The notes under the pieces are model-generated. The model had not been told where the DNA came from and made no database searches. It was given only the letters and a program-made list of their open reading frames with translations. From Bacillus sp. ISL-37 (GTDB lineage: Bacteria; Bacillota; Bacilli; Bacillales; Cytobacillaceae), in the NCBI RefSeq assembly GCF_018613315.1, contig NZ_JAGGQL010000012.1, forward strand, positions 35,386 to 99,385: DNA of 64,000 nucleotides. Direction: 5' to 3'. The translations under genes and the position numbers were made by a program. Numbering within the stretch: the stretch's first letter is position 1; every line of letters begins with the position of its first letter. This document shows, one piece after another, positions 7,678 to 46,703 of the stretch.

Positions 7678-8090
7678 GATACCCTTATGCAAGAGAAGCC
7701 CGTCCCATAAGGGTACTATTAAGCCAGAAAGGTACCCTTATGCAAGAGAACTCCGTTACATAAGGGTACTATTAAGCCAGAAAGGTACCCTTATGCAAGA
7801 GAACTCCGTTACATAAGGGTACTATTAAGCCAGAAAGGTACCCTTATGCAAGAGAATCTCGTCCCATAAGGGTACTATTAAGCTAGAAAGGTACCCTTAT
7901 GCAAGAGAACTCCGTTACATAAGAACACTATTAAGCCAGAAAGGTACCCTTATGCAAGAGAACTCCGTTACATAAGGGGACTATTAAGCCAGAAAGGTAC
8001 CCTTATGCAAGAGAATCTCGTCCCATAAGGGTACTCTATTAAGCTAGAAAGATACCCTTATGCAAGAGAACTCCAGCCCATAAGGGTACC
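7678..8090. repeat. Array A: eight 53-bp hairpin-bearing tandem repeats
   Basis: Unit starts are 7678, 7731, 7784, 7837, 7890, 7943, 7996 and 8051: period exactly 53 bp six times, then 55 through a CT insertion. Each unit is arm GGTACCCTTATG, a 16-base loop beginning CAAGAGAA, the inverted arm CATAAGGGTACT, then a 13-base linker ATTAAGCCAGAAA. Loops come in two main types, ending CTCCGTTA or TCTCGTCC. Second arms of copies five and six are degenerate. The array lies between the convergent genes speD and ytkP. Confidence 0.95.
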
Positions 8091-8123
8091 CAAAACGCCG
8101 TGAAGGTTCGATTCTCCTCCTAT

Positions 8124-8154
8124 ATAAAAAAACTCGCCAAATACATGGCGAGTC
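8124..8154 (-). terminator. Terminator of ytkP (minus strand)
   Basis: Read on the minus strand: ACTCGCCA, loop, TGGCGAGT, then TTTTTTT. Confidence 0.88.
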
Positions 8155-8164
8155 CTTTTCATGA

Positions 8165-9100
8165 CTAATCCTCAAACCTGAATAAATCGCTTGAGAGGTA
8201 TCTTTCTCCTGTGTCACAGGCAATGTAGATGACGACTTCATCCGGCTTTAGGTCCTTGGCGACATTGATGGCGGCGAAGCAGGCGGCTCCAGATGACGGT
8301 CCGACTAGGATGCCTTCTTCTTTGGCCAGTCTTCGTGCCGTTTCATATGCATCTTCATCCTCAATTTTATGGATCTTTTCATATACATCCTGATTGAGGA
8401 TTTTTGGGATGAAGCCTGGACTTGTGCCGACCAGTTTATGCTTCCCGGGCTTGCCGCCGGAGAGCACTGGCGACCCGGCGGGCTCAACGACGTGTACTGC
8501 AAGGTCAGGATACTCTTCTTTTAGAGCCTCGCCCGTACCGGTGATGGTCCCGCCAGTCCCTGCTGTAGCTACGAACGCGCTGAGTGGCTTTTTCAGTTCT
8601 TCCATCGCCTCCATGATCTCTCTTGCTGTTGTTTGCCTGTGTGCGTCAGGGTTCGCTCCATTTTCAAACTGCATCGGCATAAAGCTGTTAGGAATCTCCT
8701 TTACCAACTCTTCCGCCTTTTTGATCGCACCAGGCATTTTTTCGTCGCCAGGTGTCAGCACGACTTCTGCTCCATACGCTTTTAACAGATTGATTCTCTC
8801 TTCTGTCATCGTGTCTGGCATGACAAGAATCGCTTTATAACCTCTTGCCGCAGCGTTCATGGCCAGGCCAATGCCGGTATTGCCGCTTGTGGGCTCAATG
8901 ATTGTAGCACCAGGTTTCAGCTTTCCTTCATTTTCGGCTGAAACAATCATATTGAATGCTGCCCTGTCTTTTACACTTTTGCTAGGGTTGAAGTATTCAA
9001 GCTTTAAGTAAACCGCTGCCCCGTTCTCAGGTGCCAGCCTGTTCAATTTTACAAGCGGTGTTTCTCCAATTAATGAAGCAATATTGTTAACGACTCTCAT
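8165..9100 (-). CDS. ytkP: Cysteine synthase-family PLP enzyme (YtkP / CysK type)
   Basis: 311 residues of the O-acetylserine sulfhydrylase family, a PLP fold II enzyme forming cysteine from O-acetylserine and sulfide. PLP lysine K44 lies in SVKDRAAFN; the substrate loop TSGNTG is at 71-76; GTGGTITG and the C-terminal PSSGAA phosphate motifs are present. The start at 9100 is chosen because AAGGAGG lies just upstream; the longer frame to 9145 includes that site. The neighbour ytlP and the 311-residue length favour YtkP over the main CysK, but biochemistry cannot be told from sequence alone. It diverges from ytlP and ends in a strong terminator next to array A. Confidence 0.85.
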   Translation of the reverse strand: MRVVNNIASLIGETPLVKLNRLAPENGAAVYLKLEYFNPSKSVKDRAAFNMIVSAENEGKLKPGATIIEPTSGNTGIGLAMNAAARGYKAILVMPDTMTEERINLLKAYGAEVVLTPGDEKMPGAIKKAEELVKEIPNSFMPMQFENGANPDAHRQTTAREIMEAMEELKKPLSAFVATAGTGGTITGTGEALKEEYPDLAVHVVEPAGSPVLSGGKPGKHKLVGTSPGFIPKILNQDVYEKIHKIEDEDAYETARRLAKEEGILVGPSSGAACFAAINVAKDLKPDEVVIYIACDTGERYLSSDLFRFED

Positions 9101-9321
9101 GTGATAGCCTCCTTGATCGATATCGACCTGCTTTAGTATTTCCATTTAAGTGAATAATTGATGATAAGCAACTGAAAAATAATGTTAGCTTCTTCTTATC
9201 ATATAAAAAAAGACTATTCCTATCAACTTGTGGGGATTAGAAATGTTCATAAGGAAATTCTGCCAATATTACAAACCATTTGCTACAATAAATTCAAGTG
9301 GACAAGAAAGGGTGTATTTGA

Positions 9322-9897
9322 TTGACGGGTCAGCAAACACATTATTTCTATGCTCTCGAGATTCCTGGGGAGACAAAAGAAATCCTGAAAGGCAAAATCC
9401 ACAGCCTGCAAGGTGAGTTGCCTTTCAAAACCTGGGTACATCCGCAGGATTTACATATTACGCTCGCATTCCTTGGAAATGCTCCAGAAGCTAAAATACA
9501 GGCTGCCAATGAAGTGATTGACGCAGCACTAAATAACGAAGCATCATTTAAAATGAAAATCAATCATTTAGGCATTTTCGGCCGAAAGGACTCTCCAAGG
9601 ATTTTTTGGGCGGGGCTAGAGGGATCCGCAGAAATGAATGATGTTAGAGATGCTGTGTTTACTGCATGCGTGGACTCAGGTTTTACCCTTGAAACACGCC
9701 CGTTCAGTCCTCATATCACCATCGCCAGGAAATGGGTCGGCGAGGAAGCTTTCACCGCTGACCAGCTTGAGGCAATGAACCCATTTAAAAAAGAATTAAC
9801 TTTTCATGCCGAGAGGGTCGTTTTGTACAAGACTCATTTGGGGAAAAGTCCAAAATATGAACCAATTACACTATTCCCGCTTGCTTCCCGGTCTTAA
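9322..9897 (+). CDS. ytlP: RNA 2',3'-cyclic phosphodiesterase (2'-5' RNA ligase family, ThpR/YtlP)
   Basis: 191 residues of the 2H phosphoesterase superfamily. The two catalytic HxT motifs are H45-I-T47 (DLHITLAF) and H131-I-T133 (PHITIAR), spaced as in LigT/ThpR. These enzymes open 2',3'-cyclic phosphates on RNA ends and can ligate 2'-5' ends in vitro. The start codon is TTG at 9322, after GAAAGGGTG. It heads the run ytlP-ytlQ-ytlR-amyX, all on the plus strand with short gaps or overlaps, suggesting one transcript, though the functional links between the products are unclear. Confidence 0.87.
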   Translation: MTGQQTHYFYALEIPGETKEILKGKIHSLQGELPFKTWVHPQDLHITLAFLGNAPEAKIQAANEVIDAALNNEASFKMKINHLGIFGRKDSPRIFWAGLEGSAEMNDVRDAVFTACVDSGFTLETRPFSPHITIARKWVGEEAFTADQLEAMNPFKKELTFHAERVVLYKTHLGKSPKYEPITLFPLASRS

Positions 9898-45166: not shown

Positions 45167-45212
45167 TCGCAAAAATCCGGTTAAGAAATATATTCGAATG
45201 GAGGAAGAAAAG

Positions 45213-46472
45213 ATGGAATTACTAAAAGATCTCGAATGGCGCGGGATTATTTACCAGCAAACAGATGAAGAGGGAATTAAGGATCTGCTTTCTAAGGAGA
45301 AAATCTCTCTTTACTGCGGTGTTGATCCAACAGCGGACAGCATGCATATCGGTCACCTTCTTCCGTTCCTGACTCTGCGCCGTTTCCAGAATGCTGGGCA
45401 TCGTCCGATTGTTCTTGTCGGAGGAGCGACCGGCTTGATCGGCGACCCAAGCGGCAAGAGTGAGGAGCGTAAACTGCAGACACTCGAGCAAGTTCAGTTG
45501 AATGTAGACGGCATCAGAAAGCAGCTGGAGCAAATTTTCAGTGTTGAAGGCGAAAATGGCGCTATGATGGTCAATAACTACGATTGGGCAGGATCCATGG
45601 ATGTCGTTACATTCCTGCGTGACTTCGGGAAGAACGTCGGCGTGAACTACATGCTGGCAAAAGATACAATCGCTTCAAGACTAGAAACGGGTATTTCATT
45701 TACGGAATTCACATACACGATCCTGCAGGCGATGGATTTCTACCACTTATACGAAAAACATGGCTGCAAAATGCAGATCGGCGGAAGCGACCAGTGGGGC
45801 AATATTACGACCGGTCTCGAATTGATCCGTAAAATGTCCGCAGAAGGATCCAAAGCTTTTGGACTTACAATACCGCTTGTAACGAAAGCAGACGGAACAA
45901 AATTCGGAAAGTCAGAAAGCGGAGCTGTATGGCTTGATCCAGAAAAAACGTCACCATACGAGTTCTACCAGTTCTGGATCAACACAGCTGATGCTGATGT
46001 CGTGAAGTACTTGAAATTCTTTACTTTCTTAGAAAAAGAAGAAATCGAAGCGCTGGAAAAAGCGGTTGAGGAAGAGCCACATCTTCGCAAGGCTCAAAAA
46101 GCCCTTGCAGAAGAAATGACACGCATGATCCATGGCGAAGAATCACTTCAGCAGGCAATCAGGATTTCAGCAGCACTTTTCAGCGGCGACATTAAAAACC
46201 TGAGCGCTGATGAAATCAAGCAAGGATTCAAAGATGTTCCTTCTTTTACAGTGGAAGAGAAGGAAGAACAAGGATTAGTCGACTTGCTGGTTGCGGCGAA
46301 AATCTCGCCATCCAAGCGCCAGGCGCGTGAAGATGTAACAAACGGTGCAGTCTCCCTGAATGGAGAGCGCGTCACTGACACTGCATATGTCCTTAGCGAT
46401 GCTGACAAGATCGACGGGCAGTTCACCATCATCCGCCGCGGAAAAAAGAAGTACTTTATGATTAAATACTAG
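45213..46472 (+). CDS. tyrS: Tyrosyl-tRNA synthetase TyrS
   Basis: 419 residues, class I synthetase. The HIGH motif is H45-I-G-H48, the KMSKS-equivalent is KFGKS at 230-234, and a C-terminal S4-type RNA-binding domain (about 350-415) contacts tRNA-Tyr. The start at 45213 is preferred because GGAGG lies eight bases upstream; ATG 45198 is next to the same site. It is controlled by the upstream T-box. The 3' hairpin is at 46528. Confidence 0.95.
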   Translation: MELLKDLEWRGIIYQQTDEEGIKDLLSKEKISLYCGVDPTADSMHIGHLLPFLTLRRFQNAGHRPIVLVGGATGLIGDPSGKSEERKLQTLEQVQLNVDGIRKQLEQIFSVEGENGAMMVNNYDWAGSMDVVTFLRDFGKNVGVNYMLAKDTIASRLETGISFTEFTYTILQAMDFYHLYEKHGCKMQIGGSDQWGNITTGLELIRKMSAEGSKAFGLTIPLVTKADGTKFGKSESGAVWLDPEKTSPYEFYQFWINTADADVVKYLKFFTFLEKEEIEALEKAVEEEPHLRKAQKALAEEMTRMIHGEESLQQAIRISAALFSGDIKNLSADEIKQGFKDVPSFTVEEKEEQGLVDLLVAAKISPSKRQAREDVTNGAVSLNGERVTDTAYVLSDADKIDGQFTIIRRGKKKYFMIKY

Positions 46473-46527
46473 AGTTTTTTTTCGGAAACTTTATTGCTTC
46501 ATGCGAAAAACATTTCATATAAATGAT

Positions 46528-46562
46528 AAAAACAGCCTTCTGGATACCAGATGGCTGTTTCT
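46528..46562 (+). terminator. Hairpin terminator after tyrS
   Basis: AAACAGCCTTCTGG / CCAGATGGCTGTTT with one mismatch, followed by a C/T-rich tail. Confidence 0.7.
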
Positions 46563-46591
46563 TCTATAAAAATAAAATCTGTTTTTCACTT

Positions 46592-46703
46592 TATCGTTCA
46601 CATTTTCAAATATATCAGCGGATTTTTGATTATATCGACCACATTTTCAAATATATCGGCGGATTTTCAAATATATCGACCACATTTGAGAATATATCGA
46701 CCA
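46592..46703. repeat. Array F: six 20/21-bp tandem repeats with alternating unit types
   Basis: TATCG (TATCA in copy two) starts at 46592, 46613, 46633, 46654, 46674 and 46695, with spacings 21, 20, 21, 20, 21. Two unit types alternate: TATCGACCACATTTTCAA and TATCGGCGGATTTTCAA, giving a 41-bp higher-order period. TCGACCAC is shared with array E. It lies between convergent tyrS and rpsD. Confidence 0.93.

Follow-up and report, generated by a model that had tools for sequence, protein, structure and literature searches.

The window analysed here, 64,000 nucleotides of Bacillus sp. ISL-37 (positions 35386–99385 of contig NZ_JAGGQL010000012.1, in a genome of 4.74 Mb and 62 contigs), contains six intergenic tandem arrays, A to F, with repeat units of about 52 or about 21 bp. 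Arrays of these two lengths recur in the sampled parts of the genome and in its relatives, the units of the longer class are dyads whose A/T and G/C segments keep step with the DNA helix, and the orientation of these arrays nearly always follows the strand bias of replication. Since a dyad every five turns, phased bendability and an exact spacing of the half-sites occur together, we suggest, with something short of even confidence, that the arrays are helix-phased DNA on one face of which a putative chromosome-organising protein likely sits, and that they are polar with respect to replication.

To judge from tyrS, the chromosome is that of a Mesobacillus-like member of the Bacillaceae, because its nearest relatives by that gene are Bacillus sp. 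ISL-55 and ISL-45, with species named Mesobacillus and Cytobacillus coming next. The survey of the own genome covered the window and 40 further stretches, together 862 kb; some of the contigs were picked among carriers of the array A motif, and the stretches on them were placed blind to arrays. The relative G072 was sampled in stretches spaced roughly evenly. Genes were called by a rule of the longest open reading frame (ORF), and arrays that count as coding may be intergenic (two 52-bp arrays of the own genome and five of the 19 arrays in the second helix set below).

Array periods and unit length

With Tandem Repeats Finder (TRF), 54 of the 61 intergenic arrays in the 862 kb fell into two classes, 41 at 51–54 bp (periods of 51, 52, 53 and 54 bp in 4, 31, 5 and 1 arrays) and 13 at 19–21 bp (19 bp once, 20 and 21 bp six times each). 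The seven remaining arrays had periods of 9, 23, 24, 34, 40, 104 and 187 bp, of which 104 is 2 × 52 and 40 is 2 × 20, and the 13 arrays inside ORFs had mostly other periods, two being at 52 bp. In G072, 12 of 23 arrays lay at 51–52 bp and seven at 20–21 bp. For the own genome and G072 together the mean period is 52.00 bp in the long class (standard deviation 0.45, n = 53) and 20.8 bp in the short class (n = 17), where many arrays alternate steps of 20 and 21 bp. Extrapolated from 43 TRF arrays per 862 kb, the genome would hold ~236 arrays of the 52-bp kind.

The preliminary description of the window had read the unit lengths as two and five turns of the helix and had suggested an autocorrelation of intergenic sequence as a check. 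In a TRF-free scan of 422 intergenic segments, self-match segments numbered 43 at lag 52, 30 at lag 21 and 35 at lag 104, against a shuffled background with a mean of 5.7 and a maximum of 13 over lags 8–120, and no other period showed a comparable excess. The lags 31 (16 segments), 63 (10) and 73 (9), which are also whole numbers of turns, were level with neighbouring lags, and thus the rule is not one of any whole number of turns. Units of 20–21 and 52 bp correspond to about two turns and to five; the reading in the preliminary description was too simple, and the broad spread of periods that would have spoken against it was not seen. Two kinds of element are present, and they differ in architecture, the 52-bp arrays being built of dyad units and the 20–21-bp arrays of direct repeats.

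Three side observations concern array structure. Runs of N lie within or next to 52-bp arrays in stretches L109 and L115 of the own genome, and assemblies may break or shorten there. Two higher-order arrays alternate two unit types in ABAB order (L009:13471–13917 and L122:14632–15050). A distant genome (G293, L209) has intergenic 8-bp purine arrays of AAAAGTGG and GGAAAGGT.

Unit length is kept far more strictly than sequence. Within the 43 own arrays, the step from one unit to the next has exactly the modal length in 183 of 192 cases, and adjacent units show 1027 substitutions and 29 indels, as against 3310 and 370 in ordinary intergenic DNA of 176 species pairs and 193 and 32 between the window and ISL-55; indels are four- to six-fold rarer in the arrays, in a comparison where neither arrays nor species pairs are independent. 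The site of array A is occupied in 10 of 21 genomes of the genus (own included), always by the CCTTATG family with a period of 53 bp, with 1.9–17.7 copies and consensus units that are on average 75% identical; TRF found no array at this site in the remaining 11. At the tyrS–rpsD site, relatives carry arrays of 51–53 bp or ~21 bp with differing sequences, for example a 53-bp array in ISL-45 and a 21-bp array in ISL-55 and the own genome. The period is kept while the sequence changes, across array families, genera and taxonomic families. This agrees with the preliminary description, according to which the spacing and not the sequence is conserved: the two period classes, the array A site, the modal steps and the exact geometry found family- and order-wide (see below) all speak for it, and the free drift of unit length among relatives that would have contradicted it was not seen.

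Geometry, helix phase and polarity

Written in register, the 52-bp unit comprises two inverted arms of ~10 bp, a linker of 7 bp and a spacer of ~25 bp. When the register is chosen to give maximal pairing, 39 of 43 arrays have the dyad centred on a base; averaged over 40 arrays, more than 90% of the pairs at distances of 12 and 13 bp from the dyad are kept. The arms of the most frequent superfamily carry TGTC and GACA, in the exact spacing TGTC-N19-GACA-N25. Two consecutive units were searched for as GACA-N25-TGTC-N19-GACA-N25-TGTC, with the reversed pattern as control. The own genome has 543 such matches, and 565 when the first gap is freed over 12–40. With the first two gaps free, 1945 of 2121 matches in 12 genomes of 12 genera showed the exact gap pair out of 441 combinations allowed, and the reversed control with free gaps gave 5 and 8 matches on the two strands of the same genomes. 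The F1 pairs were all N25 among the matches listed.

Of the genomes examined, 138 of 193 in the family, 37 of 199 in the order (from 16 families) and 5 of 299 in the class have the GACA geometry, two of these five belonging to the own genus. The exact reversed pattern gave no match in the 193 family and 199 order genomes, and one match on each strand in a single one of the 299 class genomes. The congener G081, in which the GACA geometry is absent, has two 52-bp arrays in 153 kb (L201:45–343 and L203:15357–16618, up to 24 copies) that are GC-rich and of other sequence; the ORFs across both are probably spurious, as all three minus-strand frames are open.

If 52 bp represents five turns, bendability should recur five times per unit, and indeed the A/T and G/C segments recur with a spacing of 10.4 bp, a fifth of the unit. 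For 60 arrays of the own genome and named relatives, compared with 4493 ordinary intergenic 52-mers, the fifth harmonic is 2.91 versus 1.47 for AA/TT (p = 3e-14) and 2.72 versus 1.16 for G/C content (p = 4e-15). When each of the 24 clusters contributes a single value, a test that handles kinship for this helix signal only, p remains at 3e-6 and 1e-5; against pair shuffles z is 11 and 14.7, respectively. The second set comprises 19 arrays (15 from G072, two from G081 and two from distant genomes) and behaves in the same way, with 3.28 versus 1.41 for AA/TT (p = 7e-7) and 2.65 versus 1.13 for G/C (p = 3e-5). The A+T profile has its maxima near 5, 16 and 26 bp from the dyad. By their A/T and G/C tracts the units of the 52-bp class are helix-phased DNA, and this phasing, like the replication polarity described below, is a new finding of the present analysis. 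A phase of 10.4 bp is a property of double-stranded DNA, which an RNA or a single-strand hairpin would not need. In the 20–21-bp class the A/T power peaks at 10.25 bp in a spectrum taken without a control. The earlier suggestion that the helix matters is thus supported in the 52-bp class, where the 10.4-bp signal stands above intergenic DNA, and only modestly in the shorter one.

In several families one strand of the spacer is rich in purines. With the leading strand inferred from the sign of the GC skew of each stretch, the purine-rich strand is the strand of positive skew in 37 of 39 arrays and in all 25 strongly skewed ones. A recount, from which 17 of 43 arrays were omitted for low skew, gave agreement in 26 of 26 strongly purine-skewed arrays. 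For the same 26 the strand of the upstream gene agrees in 16 and that of the downstream gene in 20; array orientation agrees better with the strand bias of replication than with the strands of the adjacent genes. In G072, where all 10 stretches of the first half have positive skew and 9 of the 10 in the second half negative skew, and where ~80% of coding sequence is co-directional, the intergenic arrays are purine-rich on the plus strand in 4 of 4 first-half cases and on the minus strand in 7 of 8 second-half cases. One G072 stretch (L198, 4.48–4.50 Mb) has positive skew inside the otherwise negative second half. A single-strand hairpin was rejected as the cause of the polarity: leading-strand sequence is slightly more stably folded in 31 of 43 arrays, and ordinary intergenic DNA has an equal bias (243 of 337).

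The family formed by arrays C and D can be followed through whole replichores. In five single-contig relatives its 50 forward matches lie at or below 2.117 Mb and its 37 reverse matches at or above 2.392 Mb, so that orientation accords with the replichore in 87 of 87 matches and 33 of 33 loci, some of which are probably orthologous; a sixth single-contig relative had no match to this family. Sequences recognised by SpoIIIE (SpoIIIE recognition sequences, SRS) are 8 bp long and oriented by replichore from origin to terminus. Judged from positions alone, the C/D family shows the same switch of orientation at origin and terminus. In this replichore orientation it also resembles the FtsK-orienting polar sequences (KOPS) and architecture-imparting sequences (AIMS) as presented in the available parts of PMC2680272 and PMC5993296, which are, however, 8-bp sequences there, whereas the elements described here are intergenic tandem arrays of ~100–1300 bp.

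The six arrays of the window

The six intergenic tandem arrays of the preliminary description were all recovered by TRF, and each lies between genes (identified from the ORF list and family matches):

Array A, 7674..8089, no strand assigned: 53 bp × 7.8, 90% matches, arms GTACCCTTATG / CATAAGGGTAC; between speD and cysK, convergent.
Array B, 16291..16360, plus strand: 20 bp × 3.5, direct repeat, core CGCCAATAA; between trmB and ytnP.
Array C, 19764..19951, plus strand: 52 bp × 3.6, 68% matches, the weakest of the six, dyad units; between a DUF84 gene and an ORF without family.
Array D, 29921..30070, plus strand: 52 bp × 2.9, dyad units of the array C family; between an M29 peptidase gene and a DUF948 gene, divergent.
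Array E, 37046..37164, plus strand: 21 bp × 5.7, direct repeat, core TTCGACCAC; between ccpA and a histone-deacetylase-like gene, convergent.
Array F, 46592..46703, plus strand: 21 bp × 5.4, direct repeat, core TATCGACCACA; between tyrS and rpsD, convergent.

The arrays lie where the preliminary description had placed them; the unit of array A is 53 bp and not 52.5 bp. As further corrections, C and D form a single family (ATTGGYGCC ... GGTCACCAAT), and E and F have TCGACCAC in common. The array A motif occurs at many additional places in the own genome, and the core of array B recurs in the own stretches L017 and L028 and in G072. Array C has the consensus GTCACCAAT-N7-ATTGGTGCC and a spacer that is purine-rich on the plus strand, the purine fraction being 0.83 on the strand of positive GC skew. 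Array E matches itself at lags of 21, 42 and 63, and array F, in which 20- and 21-bp steps alternate to give a double unit of 41 bp, at lags of 41 and 61.

The genes flanking the arrays are mostly housekeeping genes. Scans and by-eye reading found terminator-like hairpins between gene and array at speD, cysK, trmB, ccpA and rpsD, and because these hairpins separate gene from array the arrays beside these genes appear to lie outside the transcripts. No curated RNA family overlapped the arrays at gathering score. An ORF of 128 amino acids over array F (46523–46909, from the mechanical ORF list) is taken as spurious, and the promoter-like matches within this array are of the type expected of AT-rich repeats. 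A neighbour gene common to the arrays, sought in 20 low-copy genomes, was rejected, the candidates being orthologous loci of two genome pairs, short array-derived ORFs and two weak protein matches (27–28% identity).

Elsewhere in the window there are two copies of the Bacillaceae-1 RNA motif (RF01690; 20747–20809 and 22277–22338, minus strand, 1.5 kb apart), a T-box leader (RF00230) ahead of tyrS (44922–45142, plus strand) and an ORF of 979 amino acids (41840–44779, minus strand) one end of which holds low-complexity repeats of 6 and 12 bp. In G087 (L164) the match of the cysK ortholog has one TAG within it.

Possible roles of the arrays

The geometry might give a hint how the arrays work. The dyad and the phased bendability could be read by a DNA-binding protein that is dimeric or forms filaments, or by a few paralogues, and tandem copies would let the bound protein build a rigid or wrapped stretch of DNA. 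Unequal crossing-over would alter the number of copies and keep the register, since units out of register would stay unoccupied. The polarity might serve the passage of the replication fork, the direction of a translocase or the blocking of head-on transcription.

Several observations weigh against such a protein. No array-binding protein was found. The 60 units of the helix test form 24 sequence clusters at 62% identity, which would be hard for one sequence-specific protein to recognise; half-site complementarity extends to the 7-bp linker or to the spacer depending on the family, which leaves no clear single recognition rule; and 55 of 193 family genomes are without the GACA form, which is hence dispensable. 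Array ends, which we rejected as an indicator of the true unit, are mixed, with the right arm first in 24 of 37 arrays and the left arm last in 21 of 37. Among the array A consensus units of 10 species there are 586 substitutions and 46 indels, a ratio near the ordinary one, part of these indels being due to two TRF consensus strings that are one base short. Two of the 39 arrays have the opposite polarity (L022:9108–9332 and L116:2662–2999). The 20–21-bp class has a weaker helix signal, with a modestly raised second harmonic (G/C z = 3.5), and no uniform polarity: by eye, CGCCAATAA arrays point one way in 6 of 6 cases and TCGACCAC arrays in 3 versus 2. We also note that both arrays of reversed polarity belong to one family (TCTATCGGACA), as though it were invertible.

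The main rival is that the 52-bp arrays are tandem intrinsic terminators working one way against head-on RNA polymerases, the dyad providing the RNA hairpin and the adjoining tract the U-run. This would account for polarity and sequence freedom alike, and we regard it as unlikely but as a serious contender. Terminator-like sites number 72 in RNA of the head-on sense and 4 in that of the leading sense (in 22 and 4 of 57 arrays), and the 8 nt after the stem hold 3.72 T in the head-on and 1.12 in the leading sense, with backgrounds of 2.63 and 2.42. Of 43 arrays 37 were scored, and 34 of these have the higher T count head-on; T-tracts of this kind, which fit terminators, count further against a bound protein; the terminator calls of arrays C and D are on the minus strand. 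On the other side, a terminator-like site is missing from the head-on strand of 35 of the 57 arrays, a T-run is missing from array A (0.6 of 8), and termination requires neither exactly 52 bp nor a 10.4-bp phase. Nor is G-U favoured overall among the mismatched pairs of head-on RNA (20 G-U versus 46 A-C in the own genome, 9 versus 4 in relatives), and in 31 of 43 arrays it is the head-on-sense strand that folds less stably, a difference also seen in ordinary intergenic DNA. Besides being a rival, termination is a possible use of these arrays. Alternatively, the arrays could be selfish palindromes amplified in tandem, similar to repetitive extragenic palindromes (REP) or miniature inverted-repeat transposable elements, a transposase, or single-strand hairpins formed on the template of the lagging strand, setting their length. 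Dyads, dispersed families and replication polarity fit this idea, as do the differing arrays at one site in the close relatives ISL-45, ISL-55 and the own genome. We consider it rather improbable nonetheless, as the array A family and its period persist at their site in 10 of 21 genomes of the genus, the leading-strand folding bias equals that of ordinary intergenic DNA, and selfish palindromes do not need a 10.4-bp phase of double-stranded DNA. Moreover, REP and bacterial interspersed mosaic elements (BIME) of the kind spread by REP-associated tyrosine transposases (RAYT) depend on a Y1 transposase, and the Y1 family PF01797 had no match in the own genome and matched 5 of 14 control genomes; RAYT-driven elements are rejected for this reason.

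Curved DNA without a dedicated protein, in which phased A-tracts set the apices of supercoils or act as spacers, would explain the 10.4-bp phasing and the 10.25 bp of the short class. Curvature alone leaves the dyad, the TGTC and GACA motifs at fixed N19/N25 and the conserved arms unexplained, however, and we think this more doubtful again than selfish elements. Least probable by far are neutral tandem repeats arising by slippage and unequal crossing-over with unselected length. The range of 1.9–17.7 copies at one site and the alternating higher-order units would suit them, but one length is kept across sequence clusters, genera and families and indels are depleted; on the period classes, the indel depletion, the lag scan and the conserved geometry we reject neutral repeats of drifting length. 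The protein-bound, helix-phased strip remains our tentatively preferred reading.

Among known repeats the STAR elements of Staphylococcus are nearest in style. In the available part of PMC3532100 they have a 14-bp motif, T(G/A/T)TGTTG(G/T)GGCCC(C/A), and spacers of 40–44 bp at the gapR locus, and they share with the present arrays intergenic units of ~50 nt, locus-specific spacers and a variable copy number. Unlike them, the arrays described here vary the motif between families and fix the length near 52 bp. The 862 kb of the own genome contain no copy of the STAR core TGTTGNGGCCC; the 14-bp motif is lacking there, and what is shared is the pattern of intergenic, locus-specific, copy-variable repeats. 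STAR pairs were also absent from 16 genomes provisionally assigned to Staphylococcus by size, a result of little weight. With REP and BIME the arrays share extragenic inverted arms, alternating orientation and two linker lengths; they differ in their many families per genome, their exact 52-bp geometry and the lack of RAYT. REP and BIME elements are the subject of PMC2817692 and PMC3733652. Phased A-tracts of prokaryotes (PMC3940949, PMC3431218, available parts) likewise consist of A/T runs in helix phase, but that signal is genome-wide, whereas here it resides in discrete tandem dyad arrays well above the intergenic DNA of the same genome. The arrays are not those of clustered regularly interspaced short palindromic repeats (CRISPR), judged on the spacers alone, which repeat within each array. 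No description of 52-bp arrays of free sequence in Bacillaceae was found among the papers that searches of the open-access literature listed.

The preliminary description had not anticipated the dyad with its fixed N19/N25 spacing, the spread through the order or the polarity with respect to replication. It is conceivable, though less probable than a bound protein as such, that the five-turn dyad arrays form a class of element set by length and geometry, that they are polar nucleoprotein strips acting as one-way barriers against machinery that opposes the fork, and that they have spread through an order of Bacilli, giving each replichore a direction. If so, hundreds of intergenic sites in one chromosome would obey a common helical ruler while their letters remain free. 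They would constitute a cis-acting code of chromosome structure and direction at the level of double-stranded DNA in a large bacterial group, a code that standard motif searches would have missed since its sites have little sequence in common.

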